From IMG/VR virus record IMGVR_UViG_3300047319_001189, positions 1 through 22,626 of that record: 22,626 nt of DNA, one strand, 5' to 3'. Below, in pieces: positions 6,453-17,892 of this stretch. Origin of the DNA: a virus. A program made the position numbers and the translations under genes. Every line of letters begins with the position of its first letter. The first letter of the stretch is position 1. The notes beneath the pieces were generated by a model. The model did no database searches and had not been told where the DNA came from. It worked only from the letters and a program-made list of their open reading frames with translations.

Positions 6453-7799
6453 ATGGCCGTTACCGTAAACACCAGTTCCCAGTACGCCGGCGCAACGACC
6501 CGAATCATCGCCCGGAAGGCGCTGGAGGAAACCCAGCGCTACCTCGTCCTCTACCAGTTCGCCGACAAGGAAACCCTCGATCACGGGCACGGCGTCACGT
6601 GGTCGGCGATCCGCTGGTCCCGCCTGCCGCTGCCGCAATACCCGGTGGCCGAGGGGGTGGCGCCGGTCGCCAACCAGCTTTCGTTTACGCAGGTCATGGG
6701 CTCGGCGGTCCAGTGGGCCGGACGCCTCGTCTTCACCGACGTTTCGATCATCACGACCCAGCAGAACCTCATCACCGAGGGGTCGCGGATGCTGGGGATG
6801 CAGTTGGGCGAGATGAAAGAGCGCAACGCGATGGTCGCGCTGATGTCGGGTTCCCAGGTCAACTACGCCAACTCGGTCGGCTCGCGCGCCTCGCTCGCGG
6901 CCGGCGACAACCTCAACCCGACCGATGTCACCCGCACTTTCGCCAACATGGTCAACCTCGGCGTCCATATGTGGAACGGGCAGACCGGCGAGGACGTGCA
7001 GCGCTCGATCGACTACACCGCGCGGGCGAGCGAGAAGACGATCAAGGGGGTCGAGCACCTCGTCGCGGTCGGCAACGCCTTCCCCTTGGACGACCTCTCG
7101 AACAACCCGACCGTCGTCGCCGCGTGGCAGCGCTCGGACATAAACCGGCTTTACATCAACGAGATGGGGTACTGGAAGGGGATCACCTTCTGCCGCTCCA
7201 ACATGATCCCGACCTTCTTCGGCGTCGCCCAGGTCAACGGGACGCCGGGCACGGGGTCGCTCACCACCGCGACCTACACGATCCAGGTCACCGGCTGGGA
7301 CATCCAGAATTTCTACGAGAGCCGCATCTACCAGGTCTCGGCCGACATCGCGGTCGTCGCGGGCGGCATCAACGTCACGGTGCCCTCGACCCCGGGCTTC
7401 ACTTACGCGGTCTATGTCGGCGTCGGCTCGGGCGCGGCCCCGGCCAACCTCGGCCTGACGACCTCGGGGCCGCAAACCGGGCCGTTCGCGGGCCAGGCCA
7501 TCGGCATCGCGCCGGGCACCGCCGTCGTCATCACGGGCCTCGGCTCGATGGCGATCCCGCCGGCCGCGCCGACCACCGGCATCACGGTCTACCCGACATT
7601 CGTCTTCGGCAAAAATTCGTTTGCGTGCCTGAAGCTCGAAGGGGTTTCGTGGAACCGTCTGATGGAAGCCGACAAGTCGGACCCGCACAATCAACTCCGC
7701 TCGATCGGCTGGAAGGTCTTCGAGGGGTGGGTCATCAAGGACCAGCGCTATCTCGCGCGGATCGAGACCACCGCCAGCAACACCGGAACTTGGACGTAA
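6453..7799 (+). CDS. Major capsid protein, N4-gp56-like family
   Basis: This is the shell-forming protein. The N-terminal 200 residues show the pattern I associate with N4-gp56 family capsids: RKALEETQRYLVLYQFADKE, then G.GVTW..IRWSRLPLP, VAEGVAPV, a block FTDVSIITTQQNLITEGSRM, and MVALMSGSQVNYAN. Length (448 aa) and position after the scaffold agree. Between about residues 263 and 370 lies a Gly/Thr/Val-rich beta segment (for example GINVTVPSTPGFTYAVYVGV) that reads as an inserted Ig/Fn3-like domain, after which the core resumes with TVYPTFVFGKNSFACLKLEG. The ATG follows GGAGG at a spacing of 9. An ATG at 6445 in another frame makes only a 7-codon peptide and is too close to the ribosome-binding site. 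Confidence 0.85.
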   Translation: MAVTVNTSSQYAGATTRIIARKALEETQRYLVLYQFADKETLDHGHGVTWSAIRWSRLPLPQYPVAEGVAPVANQLSFTQVMGSAVQWAGRLVFTDVSIITTQQNLITEGSRMLGMQLGEMKERNAMVALMSGSQVNYANSVGSRASLAAGDNLNPTDVTRTFANMVNLGVHMWNGQTGEDVQRSIDYTARASEKTIKGVEHLVAVGNAFPLDDLSNNPTVVAAWQRSDINRLYINEMGYWKGITFCRSNMIPTFFGVAQVNGTPGTGSLTTATYTIQVTGWDIQNFYESRIYQVSADIAVVAGGINVTVPSTPGFTYAVYVGVGSGAAPANLGLTTSGPQTGPFAGQAIGIAPGTAVVITGLGSMAIPPAAPTTGITVYPTFVFGKNSFACLKLEGVSWNRLMEADKSDPHNQLRSIGWKVFEGWVIKDQRYLARIETTASNTGTWT

Positions 7800-7817: not shown

Positions 7818-8141
7818 ATGGCCGCAGGTAACGTAATCGTCATGCTGGAACTCCGCATTGCGCAGGTGCAAGGCGGGACGACGGCGGTGCAGGTTCAGCA
7901 GAACCAGTCGAACAACCCAGGGCAGGGGCAGTCGCAGGTGTCGATCATGATGCCGATCGACCAGTTCATGTACTTCCAGGACGCGGAGGCGGTGCCGGGA
8001 ACGGCGGGCGCGATCACGCTGGCGAACATCAACACGGCGCTGACCGCCGCGGTCGCGGCGCTGGCCGGGGCGAGCGGCACGCCGCTGATTACCCCGACGC
8101 TCCTCGCGCAGATAAATGCGTGGAACAGCGGCTCGCCATAG
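7818..8141 (+). CDS. Hypothetical protein after capsid (107 aa)
   Basis: Not recognised. MAAGNVIVMLELRIAQVQGG leads into a Gln/Asn-rich stretch (VQVQQNQSNNPGQGQSQVS), then an Ala-rich helical part. There is no signal peptide. A very good ribosome-binding site, AAGGAGG, sits at 7806-7812. Its position directly after the capsid gene suggests a head accessory protein. The stop codon is amber (TAG, 8139-8141), and the frame beyond it stays open through the whole next gene, which itself lacks a standard start codon in the expected place. Readthrough to a fused product of about 208 residues is therefore conceivable. Confidence 0.75.
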   Translation: MAAGNVIVMLELRIAQVQGGTTAVQVQQNQSNNPGQGQSQVSIMMPIDQFMYFQDAEAVPGTAGAITLANINTALTAAVAALAGASGTPLITPTLLAQINAWNSGSP

Positions 8142-8150
8142 GAGGCTCCC

Positions 8151-8453
8151 ATCGCCACAATCACCATAGGGACGACGGCCCAGACGACGCTGACCGGAGC
8201 CGTCTGGCACAGCAACATGGCGCAGGCCGATGTCCGTGCGATCAACACGGCGATCCTCAACGACCTGAACCTCCGGCATCCGCAGGCGCAGATCGACGGC
8301 GGCGGCGGATTCGTGCGCGAGGGCCTCCTCTACGTGCCCAATCGGGGGCCGTTGCAGCTATACGACGGCGACATCGTGGCGGTCGACGCGAGGGGCGGGG
8401 TGATCCTCGTTACCAAATACTCCGCCGCCGGCGCCAACTGGGTTCACACGTAG
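8151..8453 (+). CDS. Small phage structural-type protein with probable ATC start (100 aa)
   Basis: The protein reads ATITIGTTAQTTLTGAVW after its first codon, then continues to GFVREGLLYVPNRGPLQLYD and ends SAAGANWVHT. GGAGG at 8141-8145 is placed ideally for a start at 8151, but that codon is ATC, and no ATG, GTG or TTG occurs in frame between 8151 and the ATG at 8217. The ATG 8217 has no ribosome-binding site and would remove the N-terminal beta segment. Options are a true AUC start, readthrough of the upstream TAG in the same frame, an ATG-to-ATC change, or a sequencing error. Function unknown; its neighbours suggest a head or neck accessory. Confidence 0.65.
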   Translation: MATITIGTTAQTTLTGAVWHSNMAQADVRAINTAILNDLNLRHPQAQIDGGGGFVREGLLYVPNRGPLQLYDGDIVAVDARGGVILVTKYSAAGANWVHT

Positions 8454-10101: not shown

Positions 10102-11049
10102 GTGCTCACCGCAGGCCAAATCATCACGCGGGCGAACCAGATCGCCAAGGCTTCCGGCATGGCGAGCCAGGGCCTCGACGGGCTCAACATCGTCCTCGGC
10201 GGGATCTGCCAGAACGAGGACTTCGCCCTGGCGCGCGGCCTCTTTCAGTTCAATTTCAACCCCTCGCTGATAACCCTCTTTGGCAGCGGCCCCTATCCGC
10301 TGCCGCTCGACTATCTGCGCACCTCGGGCTCCTCGGGCGCGGAAGGCGTCACCAAGTCGGCGTGGTTCCTGTACCCGGCCCCGACCTTCCCGAGTGGTCA
10401 GCCGATGCCGCTCGTTCCCATCGACCTCGGCGAGTTCGACCAATACCCGCAGCTCAACGCGCAGGGGCTGCCCAGCGTCATCGCGACCGACATGGGCGGC
10501 CCGCTGACGCAGCGCATCATCCTCGCGACGACGGCAAGCCTCAGTGCGGGCAGCACCGCCGGCACGGTCGGCGTCAGCAGCGGCCTCTATAACGGGCTCT
10601 CGATGGCGGGCGAGGGGGTGCAGCCGGGGACGACGATCACGATCTCGGGATCTAACATCACGCTGAGCCTGCCGGCGACGGGGACCAGCACGATCGCCAG
10701 CGTCTTCTTCGGGATCGCGCCGGTGGCCTATGTCTACCCCCCTCCGGTCGGCCCGTACCCGGCCTTCATTCGCTATCAACGGGACATGCCGCAAATCTTC
10801 GATACCTCGCGCTATCCCTGGTTTCCCGACGAGGACTACCTCATCGAGAAGTTGGCGGCGTTGATGATGCCGATCACCGGCGACACCCGCAAGGCGGAGT
10901 TCGACGCGAGCGCCGAGCATACGCTGGGCAAATACAAGAGCATGGTGGACGACACGCGGAACCGGGCGCAGACGGTGCAGATGGACGCGCGGCGCTACGG
11001 CAACGGCTCGGGGCGGGCGCTGCGCATAACAAAGCAGGCCGGTTGGTGA
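10102..11049 (+). CDS. Neck / head-tail adaptor protein (P22 gp4-like position) with inserted repeat module
   Basis: This 315-residue protein starts at GTG 10102, with GAGG at 10089-10092. The N-terminal helix LTAGQIITRANQIAKASGMA and the C-terminal part (FPDEDYLIEKLAALMMPITG, then AEHTLGKYKSMVDDTRNRAQ) fit the helical head-completion adaptors that sit under the portal. Its place just before the nozzle gene supports this. Between about residues 143 and 206 lies a Gly/Ser/Thr-rich beta module (GEGVQPGTTITISGSNITLS) of the same type repeated in the nozzle protein; the core resumes with FFGIAPVAYVYPPPVGPYPA. Family assignment rests on architecture and context and is less secure than for terminase or capsid. 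Confidence 0.7.
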   Translation: MLTAGQIITRANQIAKASGMASQGLDGLNIVLGGICQNEDFALARGLFQFNFNPSLITLFGSGPYPLPLDYLRTSGSSGAEGVTKSAWFLYPAPTFPSGQPMPLVPIDLGEFDQYPQLNAQGLPSVIATDMGGPLTQRIILATTASLSAGSTAGTVGVSSGLYNGLSMAGEGVQPGTTITISGSNITLSLPATGTSTIASVFFGIAPVAYVYPPPVGPYPAFIRYQRDMPQIFDTSRYPWFPDEDYLIEKLAALMMPITGDTRKAEFDASAEHTLGKYKSMVDDTRNRAQTVQMDARRYGNGSGRALRITKQAGW

Positions 11050-15556: not shown

Positions 15557-15633
15557 GCGTCTCCCAAGACCGCGAAATGATAGCGCGCGGGGGCCATGTG
15601 TGTTATGGGGCGGAGGCTCTATAGGGGGCGAGG

Positions 15634-16140
15634 ATGAAACGGCTACCTTATCTTGTGCTGTGCGCGCTGATGTCGGCGGCTCCCGCCTTCGCGCAGACGC
15701 TGCCGATGCCGCTCCTCAAGGGGCCGCTCGACCCGTCGCAGACCCTGGCGACCCTCAATTCTCTCATCACCTCGATCAACAACGTCCTGGTGCCCGCGCT
15801 CGGCCCCTCCTCGACCCCCAGCGGGACGCTGGTCAACCAGATTTCGATGACCGGCGGCCTGACGGGCAGCCCCGGCGTCATCGGCCTGCAGCCGGGCGCC
15901 GACGCCAACGCGGGCATCCAGATCAATCCGAACGGTTCGGGCAACATCATCCTCTTTGGGCAGAGCGACACCGGCACCCTGCAATTCGGGTCGTCCAGTT
16001 CGCTCGTCACGGCGACCGGCTTTGCCGCCTGCCCCGGCGTCGTCCCCGGCAAGCCGCCCCTCGGGGTCAAGGGCACGGTCACGAGTTATGTCATCGTCAA
16101 GGACTGGCTCGGCAACTCGCACGGTTGGGCGACCTGCTGA
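15634..16140 (+). CDS. Small exported fibre-tip-like protein with signal peptide
   Basis: This 168-residue protein starts MKRLPYLVLCALMSAAPAFA followed by QTLPMP, a clear signal peptide with an AFA-Q cleavage site. The mature part includes TLATLNSLITSINNVLVPAL, probably helical, then GVIGLQPGADANAGIQINPN and GNIILFGQSDTGTLQFGSSS, beta repeats reminiscent of short phage fibres or trimerising tips. Two Cys remain after cleavage, in FAACPG and at the C-terminus (WATC). GGGGGCGAGG lies just upstream of ATG 15634. The 77 bases before the gene hold nothing else that I can support. The stop overlaps the glycosyltransferase ATG (TGATG). Confidence 0.7.
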   Translation: MKRLPYLVLCALMSAAPAFAQTLPMPLLKGPLDPSQTLATLNSLITSINNVLVPALGPSSTPSGTLVNQISMTGGLTGSPGVIGLQPGADANAGIQINPNGSGNIILFGQSDTGTLQFGSSSSLVTATGFAACPGVVPGKPPLGVKGTVTSYVIVKDWLGNSHGWATC

Positions 16141-16808
16141 TGGCAAACCGCCCGCCCGCGATCATGCTTGGGGTTCCTTCCGCCGGGGAATGGAAGGCCC
16201 CGATGGCGGTTGACGCGATCTCGGCGTCGGTCTGGGCGACGGCTCACGGCATCTATGTCGAGCCGCGCGGGGCCGAGAGTTGCTACACCGAGTTCAACCG
16301 GAACAACATCGTCCGCGCGGCGCTCAACTACGAGCATCCGATCGACGCGATCATGTGGACTGACGCCGACATGCGGTTTCCGGCCGACACGATCGCGCGG
16401 CTGTGGGGCCACGGCAAGGCTGTCGTCGGGTCCACCTATCGCGAGCGGCAGGAGCCATACCGCTACCTCGGCAAGTTCAGCGACAAGACCGACGAGTTAG
16501 CGACCGAGGGGTTGGTCCCGGCGGAGTTGCTGCCGGGCGGGATGATCCTCGTCAAGATGGAGGTTTACCGCCACCTGCCCCCGCCGTGGTACAAGCTCGA
16601 CGAGGACGGGTTGCGCGACGACTACTATTTCAGCAAGCGGGCGCGCGACGCGGGTTTCGAGATTTGGTGCGACATGCCCTTGACCCTCAAGGTTCGCCAT
16701 CGCGGCGAGCAGGAGGTCGGCTGGTTCGAGGAGGGCGAGGCGGTTGCCCGCAGGGACGACGACCCGCGCTGGCGGGTGTTCGACAATCCAGCGCTGACCG
16801 GTACGTGA
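16140..16808 (+). CDS. Glycosyltransferase, GT-A fold family 2-like
   Basis: This 222-residue protein begins MANRPPAIMLGVPSAGEWKA. It carries a DxD-type motif in IMWTDADMRFPADTIARLW (near residue 79), followed by VVGSTYRERQEPYRY, which fits phage-encoded family 2-like glycosyltransferases using a nucleotide-sugar donor and a divalent metal. A later DEDGLRDDYYFSKRARDAGF resembles the acceptor-site acidic region. No signal peptide or membrane segment is seen, so it should act in the cytoplasm or at the inner membrane face. It lies between genes for exported proteins, so it may modify a host surface glycan or decorate one of the neighbouring products; both are inference. ATG 16140 overlaps the previous stop. 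Confidence 0.8.
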   Translation: MANRPPAIMLGVPSAGEWKAPMAVDAISASVWATAHGIYVEPRGAESCYTEFNRNNIVRAALNYEHPIDAIMWTDADMRFPADTIARLWGHGKAVVGSTYRERQEPYRYLGKFSDKTDELATEGLVPAELLPGGMILVKMEVYRHLPPPWYKLDEDGLRDDYYFSKRARDAGFEIWCDMPLTLKVRHRGEQEVGWFEEGEAVARRDDDPRWRVFDNPALTGT

Positions 16809-16829: not shown

Positions 16830-17351
16830 ATGAACAACTTGAAGAAGACCCTCCTGGCCGGCGTATCGGCCTTGGCGCTGCTGGGGACGGCCGCGATGGC
16901 CGACACCGCCGGTACGGCGGTCACCCAGAGCGCGACGCATCTCGACGCGGCCTCGTTCTGGGTCGGGCAGGCCAACGGTCTGACCGCCTGCAACGCGGTC
17001 TCGCAGACCTCCGCGTCGCAGACGATCACGATCACCCCGCCGGCGGGCCAGTACGTCTACCTGACCGCGCTCCTCATCCAGAAGAATACGGATGCGACCG
17101 GCGTTACCGAGGTGCCGACGATCTCGACGACCAATATCAGCAGCAACGGCGGCGCGACCGCCGGGGCGCTGAGCATCGCATCGACACTTTCCACGACCGG
17201 CACGACCTTCCCCGCCACGGTGATTCCCTTCCAGGTCGGCGGCCTGAAGTCGTCGGTTCCCGGCGTCGCCGTGACCTTCGTGCCGAGCGCGGCGCAGGCC
17301 ACGCATGGGATCATCTGCATGTCGGCGCTTGGCTACTACAACGCGAACTGA
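16830..17351 (+). CDS. Exported protein, paralogue A of a tandem pair
   Basis: A 173-residue protein starting MNNLKKTLLAGVSALALLGT and continuing AAMA-DTAG, a Sec signal peptide. The mature chain is Thr/Ala/Val-rich and beta-type, with conserved blocks GLTACNAVS, TITITPPAGQYVYLT, TTNISSNGGATAGA and PGVAVTFVPSA. It has two Cys (ACNAV and IICMS), able to form one disulfide. GGAG at 16819-16822 is well placed for ATG 16830. The next gene encodes a protein with the same blocks in the same order over the full length, so this is a tandem duplication. Function is unknown; a single beta-sandwich domain secreted to the periplasm or attached to the surface is the simplest reading. Confidence 0.75.
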   Translation: MNNLKKTLLAGVSALALLGTAAMADTAGTAVTQSATHLDAASFWVGQANGLTACNAVSQTSASQTITITPPAGQYVYLTALLIQKNTDATGVTEVPTISTTNISSNGGATAGALSIASTLSTTGTTFPATVIPFQVGGLKSSVPGVAVTFVPSAAQATHGIICMSALGYYNAN

Positions 17352-17361
17352 GGAGGCGACC

Positions 17362-17892
17362 ATGGAAAACACGTTCAGGAAGACCCTTCTGGCCGGCGTC
17401 TCTGCGCTGGCTCTTGTGGTCGGCGCGTCTTCGGCTTTCGCCGACGCGGCCGCCACGGCGGTCACCCAAACCGCGACGCATAGCGATGCGGCGACCTTTT
17501 GGATCGGGCAGACGGCGGGCCTGACGGCCTGCAACGCGGTCTCGGCAACCTCGCCCTCCGCCACGATCACGATCACGCCACCGGCCGGGCAGTATGTCTA
17601 CCTGACCGACCTGATCGTCCAGATCAATACGGACGCGACCGGCTCGACGGCGGTGCCCACGGTCTCGACGACCAACATCAGCTCGAACGGTGGCGCGACC
17701 GCCGGGGCATTCAGCCTGGCGACGACGCTCTCGACCACGGGCGCGACCAACACCGGCTTTGTGCTCCCCTTCCCGATCGGCGGCCTGAAGTCGGCAGCTC
17801 CGGGCGTGGCGGTGACCTTCGTGCCCTCGGCGACCCTCAGCGCGCACACCATCGCCTGCATGTCGGCGACGGGGTATTTCAACGCGAACTGA
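17362..17892 (+). CDS. Exported protein, paralogue B of a tandem pair
   Basis: A 176-residue paralogue of the upstream gene. It starts MENTFRKTLLAGVSALALVV and continues GASSAFA-DAAA, a Sec signal peptide with an AFA-D cleavage site. It shares GLTACNAVS, TITITPPAGQYVYLT, TTNISSNGGATAGA, IGGLKS..PGVAVTFVPSA and the YFNAN end with paralogue A, and keeps both Cys (ACNAV, IACMS). I chose ATG 17362 because GAGGAGG lies at 17350-17356 and the signal peptide begins there; ATG 17305 would start inside paralogue A and hide the signal. The two copies differ most in the signal peptide and at about residues 125-140 (GTTFPATVIPFQ against GATNTGFVLPFP). Confidence 0.75.
   Translation: MENTFRKTLLAGVSALALVVGASSAFADAAATAVTQTATHSDAATFWIGQTAGLTACNAVSATSPSATITITPPAGQYVYLTDLIVQINTDATGSTAVPTVSTTNISSNGGATAGAFSLATTLSTTGATNTGFVLPFPIGGLKSAAPGVAVTFVPSATLSAHTIACMSATGYFNAN

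Follow-up and report, generated by a model that had tools for sequence, protein, structure and literature searches.

How does translation begin on a phage gene that has a strong ribosome-binding site but no ordinary start codon? The question is raised by an IMG/VR virus record of 22,626 bases, analysed here at its full length (the window), which is a single metagenome-derived record. In the window, the Shine–Dalgarno (SD) core GGAGG is separated from an ATC codon by the spacer CTCCC (8146–8150), and the frame that follows ATC encodes a protein of 100 residues (Table 1).

The original prediction placed these elements correctly. GGAGG is followed by ATC after five bases, the TAG that ends the preceding gene is in frame with this ATC, and the frame is open from TAG to the stop. 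The first in-frame ATG, GTG or TTG is the ATG at 8217, which has no ribosome-binding site, as the nearest upstream GGAG is 17 bases away. Two explanations were offered at that time: initiation at ATC and readthrough of the amber stop.

Table 1. Features at and around the proposed start site (window coordinates)
Feature	Position	Strand	Remarks
Major capsid gene	6453–7799		phrog_1357
Upstream 107-residue gene, ending with amber stop	7818–8141	+	From ORF list and translation; no PHROGs match
Patch differing from otherwise 95–97% identical relatives	8102–8159	+	Carries the strong SD and ATC
Leader CATAGGAGGCTCC	8137–8149	+	One base different from AATAGGAGGCTCC; common to L009
TAG stop of upstream gene	8139–8141	+	Same frame as ATC; overlaps SD
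SD core GGAGG	8141–8145	+	5 bases ahead of ATC; predicted pairing −10.2 kcal/mol
ATC, proposed start codon	8151–8153	+	Homologous codon in 36 contigs
100-residue gene, second after major capsid gene	8151–8453	+	Stop at 8451–8453
First in-frame ATG	8217–8219	+	Without SD; rejected as start; conserved residues upstream

The ATC codon and its gene

By itself, the arrangement is unremarkable. GGAGG-N5-ATC occurs three times in the window against 1.22 expected, a number reached in 12 of 100 shuffles, so that the pattern alone is not rare here. The site at 8151 stands above chance because its ATC is the homologous start codon of related genes and because both the SD and the ATC recur in a divergent contig, L009.

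The 100-residue protein has no match in PHROGs or among named phages, and a search of the genome collection found neither a relative nor an exact copy of the longer leader. Its structure model is weak (mean pLDDT 60.6), and a fold search with this model against PDB and BFVD gave no match at E ≤ 0.001. The best solved structure, methanol dehydrogenase (E 0.025), was taken as a chance match. An Rfam search of the window returned nothing at gathering score. Elsewhere in the window, the neighbouring genes at 16830–17351 and 17305–17892 encode clearly similar, secreted-looking proteins and are apparently a tandem duplication, and a long frame at 15600–16808, without a Pfam match, overlaps a secreted-looking gene at 15634–16140.

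Start codons of homologous genes

Two IMG/VR protein scans yielded 36 distinct contigs with homologues; two loci of the second scan were other cuts of contigs already found. ATG is present at this place in 25 of the 36, and the others carry GTG (nine), TTG (one) or ATC (one). In L066, where the aligned stretch begins at residue 26, an ATG 38 codons upstream of that point was taken as the start. The sole other ATC belongs to L009, which comes from a different sample, is 54–56% identical and has its ATC behind the same TAGGAGGCTCC. Here, L009 reads AATAGGAGGCTCC-A-ATC and the window CATAGGAGGCTCC-C-ATC.

The predicted SD pairing in L009 equals that of the window, with values of −6.6 or −6.9 kcal/mol in ten NTG relatives and −4.1 kcal/mol in L065. 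The SD of the window is stronger than that of all 11 NTG-start relatives for which it was computed.

The window can also be compared with six close relatives (L003–L008), to which it is 95–97% identical over long matches (94.5% in one L004 stretch). All six have TAA-GTG at this place and a weaker SD. In the 60-base bin from 8100, identity is 62% against L003, L004 and L008, the three relatives compared in bins. It is this patch of about 58 bp that introduces the stronger SD and the ATC relative to the TAA-GTG relatives. Within it, the upstream gene differs at eight of its final 14 codons, at seven of them synonymously, and two codons differ synonymously after ATC. Both AGATAAATGCGTGG and ATAGGAGGCTCC are common to the window and L009 across the patch, whose simplest origin would be a short tract gained by recombination with a phage like L009.

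Two further observations concern this region in relatives. L010 has a short extra frame (L010:2780–3000) between two small genes, at the same boundary as the patch. L009 has an antisense Endonuclease_7-type frame (L009:345–983) between the capsid gene and the gene after it; two stops lie within 330–983, so the frame may be broken.

Recurrence of the leader in other phages

The leader is found elsewhere. ATAGGAGGCTCCNATSGC occurs in 26 contigs, followed by ATG in 24 and by ATC in two, which are the contig of L009 and L027. The L027 gene is unrelated to the 100-residue gene and matches baseplate families. As the leader scan had been seeded on an ATC example, the same leader was also scanned with other codons and unselected cases were sought. 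For AATAGGAGGCTCCN, these scans gave 43 contigs with ATH (ATA, ATC or ATT), 69 with ATG and 25 with GTG, TTG or CTG. A frame was counted as open if it had at least 60 residues, or 40 where the contig end cuts it. Open frames follow ATG in 64/69 cases, ATC in 20/22, ATT in 12/15, GTG in 6/7 and TTG in 3/6, and they follow ATA (0/6) and CTG (0/12) in none of 18. Clustering by similarity divided the proteins behind AATAGGAGGCTCCN into 35 families, and ATC or ATT occurs in 11 of them, which include capsid, portal, tail-fibre, baseplate and other structural proteins. In one phage family (MSSGAKVVSHII..., loci such as L110–L167), AATAGGAGGCTCC is kept before ATG in 40 matches, and three more distant members have AATAGGAGGCTCC before GTG.

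Annotated starts of 16 named-phage homologues were fetched, and these are ATG in 15 and TTG in one. By tblastn, the annotated start falls exactly on the ATC/ATT codon in seven of the 16 (MW202675, HTVC023P, DSL-LC04, MinM2, PaMx25, RDJL3 and RR1-A) and near it, but not exactly, in the other nine. In the exact alignments, MALDSVHPKY of PaMx25 is paired with ISLDDRHPQY, and MKYYPPYG of RR1-A with IQYNQPYG.

The pattern ATAGGAGGN5ATH, the only form counted, is present exactly once in 22 of 25 virus records, 21 of which (window included) were known beforehand to hold it. It is absent from the records of L003, L008 and L010, where the gene starts with GTG or ATG. No record has a second copy, and the reversed pattern occurs in none of the 25. 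The one-copy record not chosen for the pattern is that of L065, which was fetched as a protein relative. Here, an ATC behind ATAGGAGGTCAAA starts a homologue of another window gene, 10102–11049, which itself starts with GTG (38% identity over 273 columns, E 2e-50).

A search with the IGLFD family gave 25 loci, 14 of which the exact leader had missed. All 14 have an SD, their start codons are ATC (nine), ATT (two) and ATA (three), and their leaders vary; the search required Ile at residue 1 and therefore cannot count members that use ATG. The apparent fixity of the leader is partly selection, since it was found by way of an ATC example. With L084 as query, no IGLFD relative was found among named phages.

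As a control, the codons behind GGAGG were counted in 84 contigs that the ATG and BTG scans had yielded. At spacings of 4 and 6–9 there are 44 NTG and six ATH codons, the latter being at the background level of other codons (CTG 3, TTC 3, GTC 2, CTC 2). At spacing 5, where sites were largely selected, there are 32 NTG and one ATH. Lower mRNA structure at the ATC/ATT starts was not established in a comparison of 26 with 26 starts (mean MFE −13.95 vs −15.94, p 0.053), nor was a difference in accessibility (p 0.42). An in-frame NTG follows soon after ATC/ATT in L027 and the L072 group (five codons on), L080 (three) and L098 (two), and it could be the real start there.

Initiation at AUC

We conclude, with a probability of roughly 0.8, that 8151–8453 is translated from the AUC at 8151, by way of an SD-driven initiation region that was probably acquired as a patch and that recurs in unrelated phages. 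This reading is built on the position of the codon, the conservation of the N-terminus, the stronger SD, the patch and the recurrence, all of which are established by sequence comparison. AUC is probably used in the cell and the product would begin with Met.

The mechanism may be envisaged as follows. A six-base SD helix, AGGAGG, placed five bases before AUC, would hold the 30S subunit, enabling the ordinary initiator tRNA to start on a codon mismatched at the third position. The simplest route by which the phage would have gained this region, as a short patch, is recombination with a phage resembling L009. A region of the same type (ATAGGAGG, five bases, then AUC or AUU and sometimes AUA) recurs ahead of structural genes in phages that are unrelated. 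Regulation would most naturally fall to IF3, the AUC start probably being weak and IF3-sensitive as in infC. By analogy with that gene, expression may be lowered and under IF3 control. As for such codons before capsid genes, we can only guess that the hosts have little IF3 or an initiator tRNA that is permissive. Some Rhizobiales have unusual initiator tRNAs. A search for a phage tRNA that might read AUC as a start found no tRNA gene, either in the window or among 32 partial loci.

To our knowledge, AUH initiation is documented for few cellular genes only. In infC, which encodes IF3, an AUU, AUC or AUA start follows a strong SD at short spacing; in S. aureus, cvfC1/ccpN likewise has an AUH start that is closely preceded by a strong SD (PMC5472188, PMC13009471). 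For pcnB of E. coli, an AUU start is given in the title of a cited reference. The same sources describe S. aureus genes with an extended SD, in which AUU and AUA starts reach about 10% of AUG, one of them attaining as much as 30% in rich medium (PMC5472188, PMC13009471). Like infC-type genes, the window has an AUH codon at the homologous start position (ATC, where 35/36 relatives have ATG, GTG or TTG) and a strong SD, AGGAGG, with a spacing of 5 and −10.2 kcal/mol. Unlike infC, its product is not IF3 (TIGR00168 is without a match in the window), and the genes concerned are phage structural genes of several families, with one module per record.

A second comparison is with the Start-Associated Sequences (SAS) of Cluster K mycobacteriophages. 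These are conserved strings containing ATAGGAG, a few bases before starts; there are 11–19 per genome, before non-structural genes, and the starts are mostly ATG (80/93) (PMC3203893). The present leaders likewise contain ATAGGAG a few bases ahead of starts. Unlike SAS, the present pattern occurs once per record (22/25), before structural genes and with ATC or ATT, and the SAS consensus as given there, GGGATAGGAGCCC, is not matched by CATAGGAGGCTCC of the window. Among the best title and abstract matches in the open-licence PMC literature, no description of AUC or AUU starts of phage structural genes was found.

Alternative explanations

The alternative that survives best concerns the origin of the region and is compatible with AUC initiation. 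Here, the patch and the module would have been left by homing endonucleases, as flanks that were co-converted or as gene boundaries recoded against cleavage, and the odd start codon would be a by-product. Long frames in the 800 bases upstream were scanned for 26 ATC/ATT loci (57 of 99 frames) and 25 NTG loci with the same leader (55 of 96). Besides the window, the 26 comprise 25 of 37 ATC/ATT matches, after seven near-duplicates and five loci without a long frame had been left out; a 26th NTG locus yielded no frame. Upstream sequence is shorter than 400 bases in L077, L081 and the controls L031, L048 and L179. Endonuclease domains (HNH_3, HNH_5/HNH, NUMOD4 or GIY-YIG) lie upstream in six of the 26 (L067, L077, L080, L085, L103 and L106) and in none of the 25 NTG loci, which come from other phage groups (Fisher two-sided 0.023). 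L098 has a weak zinc-ribbon match only.

With seven endonuclease frames as tblastn queries, one further locus was found, L091, and no NTG control was matched. In L091 (minus strand), a decayed GIY-YIG gene of the L080 type occupies the last 160 bases before an intact ATT module, where it abuts the module as a deleted, frame-shifted copy consisting of the first 35 residues and of the last part in another frame. A similar remnant suspected in L095 was not found. In L080, the GIY-YIG gene (L080:5970–6640), which was not picked by its leader, has an ATA start behind AATAGGAGGCAAAA, and its leader shares TAAGAAATAGGAGGC with that of the next gene. The presence of TAAGAAATAGGAGGC on both sides resembles the outcome of a duplication of the initiation region around the gene.

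In favour of an endonuclease origin, one may add that the Endonuclease_7 frame of L009 lies one gene upstream and that the patch alters eight codons before the stop almost entirely synonymously. Against it, the window's own site holds neither an endonuclease gene nor a remnant, 19 of the 26 loci show none, and the endonucleases found belong to several types and lie in either orientation. In T4-like phages, free-standing HNH and GIY-YIG genes lie between conserved genes and their flanks are co-converted; these endonuclease genes are reported to start with AUG, or GUG in mobA (PMC2988022). The HNH and GIY-YIG genes at other module loci resemble this arrangement, unlike the site in the window. 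An endonuclease origin is conceivable, but we regard it as doubtful.

Somewhat less probable, and on balance unlikely, is termination–reinitiation, in which ribosomes that end at TAG 8139 restart at AUC and the weak codon is used mainly by such coupled ribosomes. The stop overlaps the SD and is nine bases before ATC; the corresponding distance in L009 is 16 bases. Modules behind antisense genes must, however, work without coupling. The upstream gene is antisense in L067, L077 and L098, and for this reason neither coupling nor readthrough is possible there.

A start at ATG 8217, giving a protein of 78 residues, is very improbable. This is the first in-frame ATG, GTG or TTG, but it has no SD at a usable distance, homologues start upstream of it and conserved residues precede it. 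Positions invariant in 11 homologues are present between ATC and ATG 8217, and the 22 N-terminal codons are, by the aligned sequences, conserved protein and not leader. Codons 2–22 differ from L003 and L004 only synonymously (three and two differences), though from L006 and L008 there are four synonymous changes and also five base changes in residue-altering codons. In the weak structure model, the better-predicted parts include both N-terminal strands.

Amber readthrough, in which ribosomes would sometimes insert an amino acid at TAG 8139 and ATC would be internal, is hardly credible. TAG and ATC share an open frame, and the upstream frame ends at this TAG also in L074, L079 and L080. The fusion would have 211 residues (107+1+103, with TAG counted as a residue), and not 208 as first stated. 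The in-frame stop is not kept: TAA stands directly before GTG in the six close relatives, and across module loci the upstream stop lies in varying frames and at varying distances. Readthrough is thus not conserved, and it could not reach the L009 protein, because the upstream gene of L009 ends with TGA in another frame. Of the two explanations first offered, ATC initiation is supported and readthrough is not.

A sequencing or assembly error hiding a normal start is no more believable: one base in this single record would be enough, but the same ATC and leader in the independent, divergent L009 contig mean that the error would need to happen twice, ATC and ATT recur in unrelated families, and the difference between the window and its relatives extends over a whole patch, not one base.

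Implications

Initiation at AUC thus remains the preferred reading for the window. A wider proposal, which we put forward tentatively and at less than even odds, is that ATAGGAGG, five bases and AUC, AUU or AUA form a horizontally spreading initiation module of environmental phages, which stands ahead of just one structural gene and often has a homing endonuclease, or what is left of one, next to it. Such a module might put virion assembly under start-codon discrimination, through the level of IF3 or a permissive host initiator tRNA, or it might be a scar that lets a gene boundary escape homing endonucleases. The link to endonucleases would then be a case from nature in which a gene boundary has been remodelled in response to a mobile nuclease.

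If AUH starts do recur at genes for capsid, portal and tail proteins, a class of phage structural proteins would be truncated or missed by gene finders that accept only ATG, GTG and TTG, and such programs may be overlooking a recurring mode of phage translation start. If true, this raises a testable question, namely how a phage produces an abundant virion protein in sufficient amounts when the start codon is one rejected by IF3.
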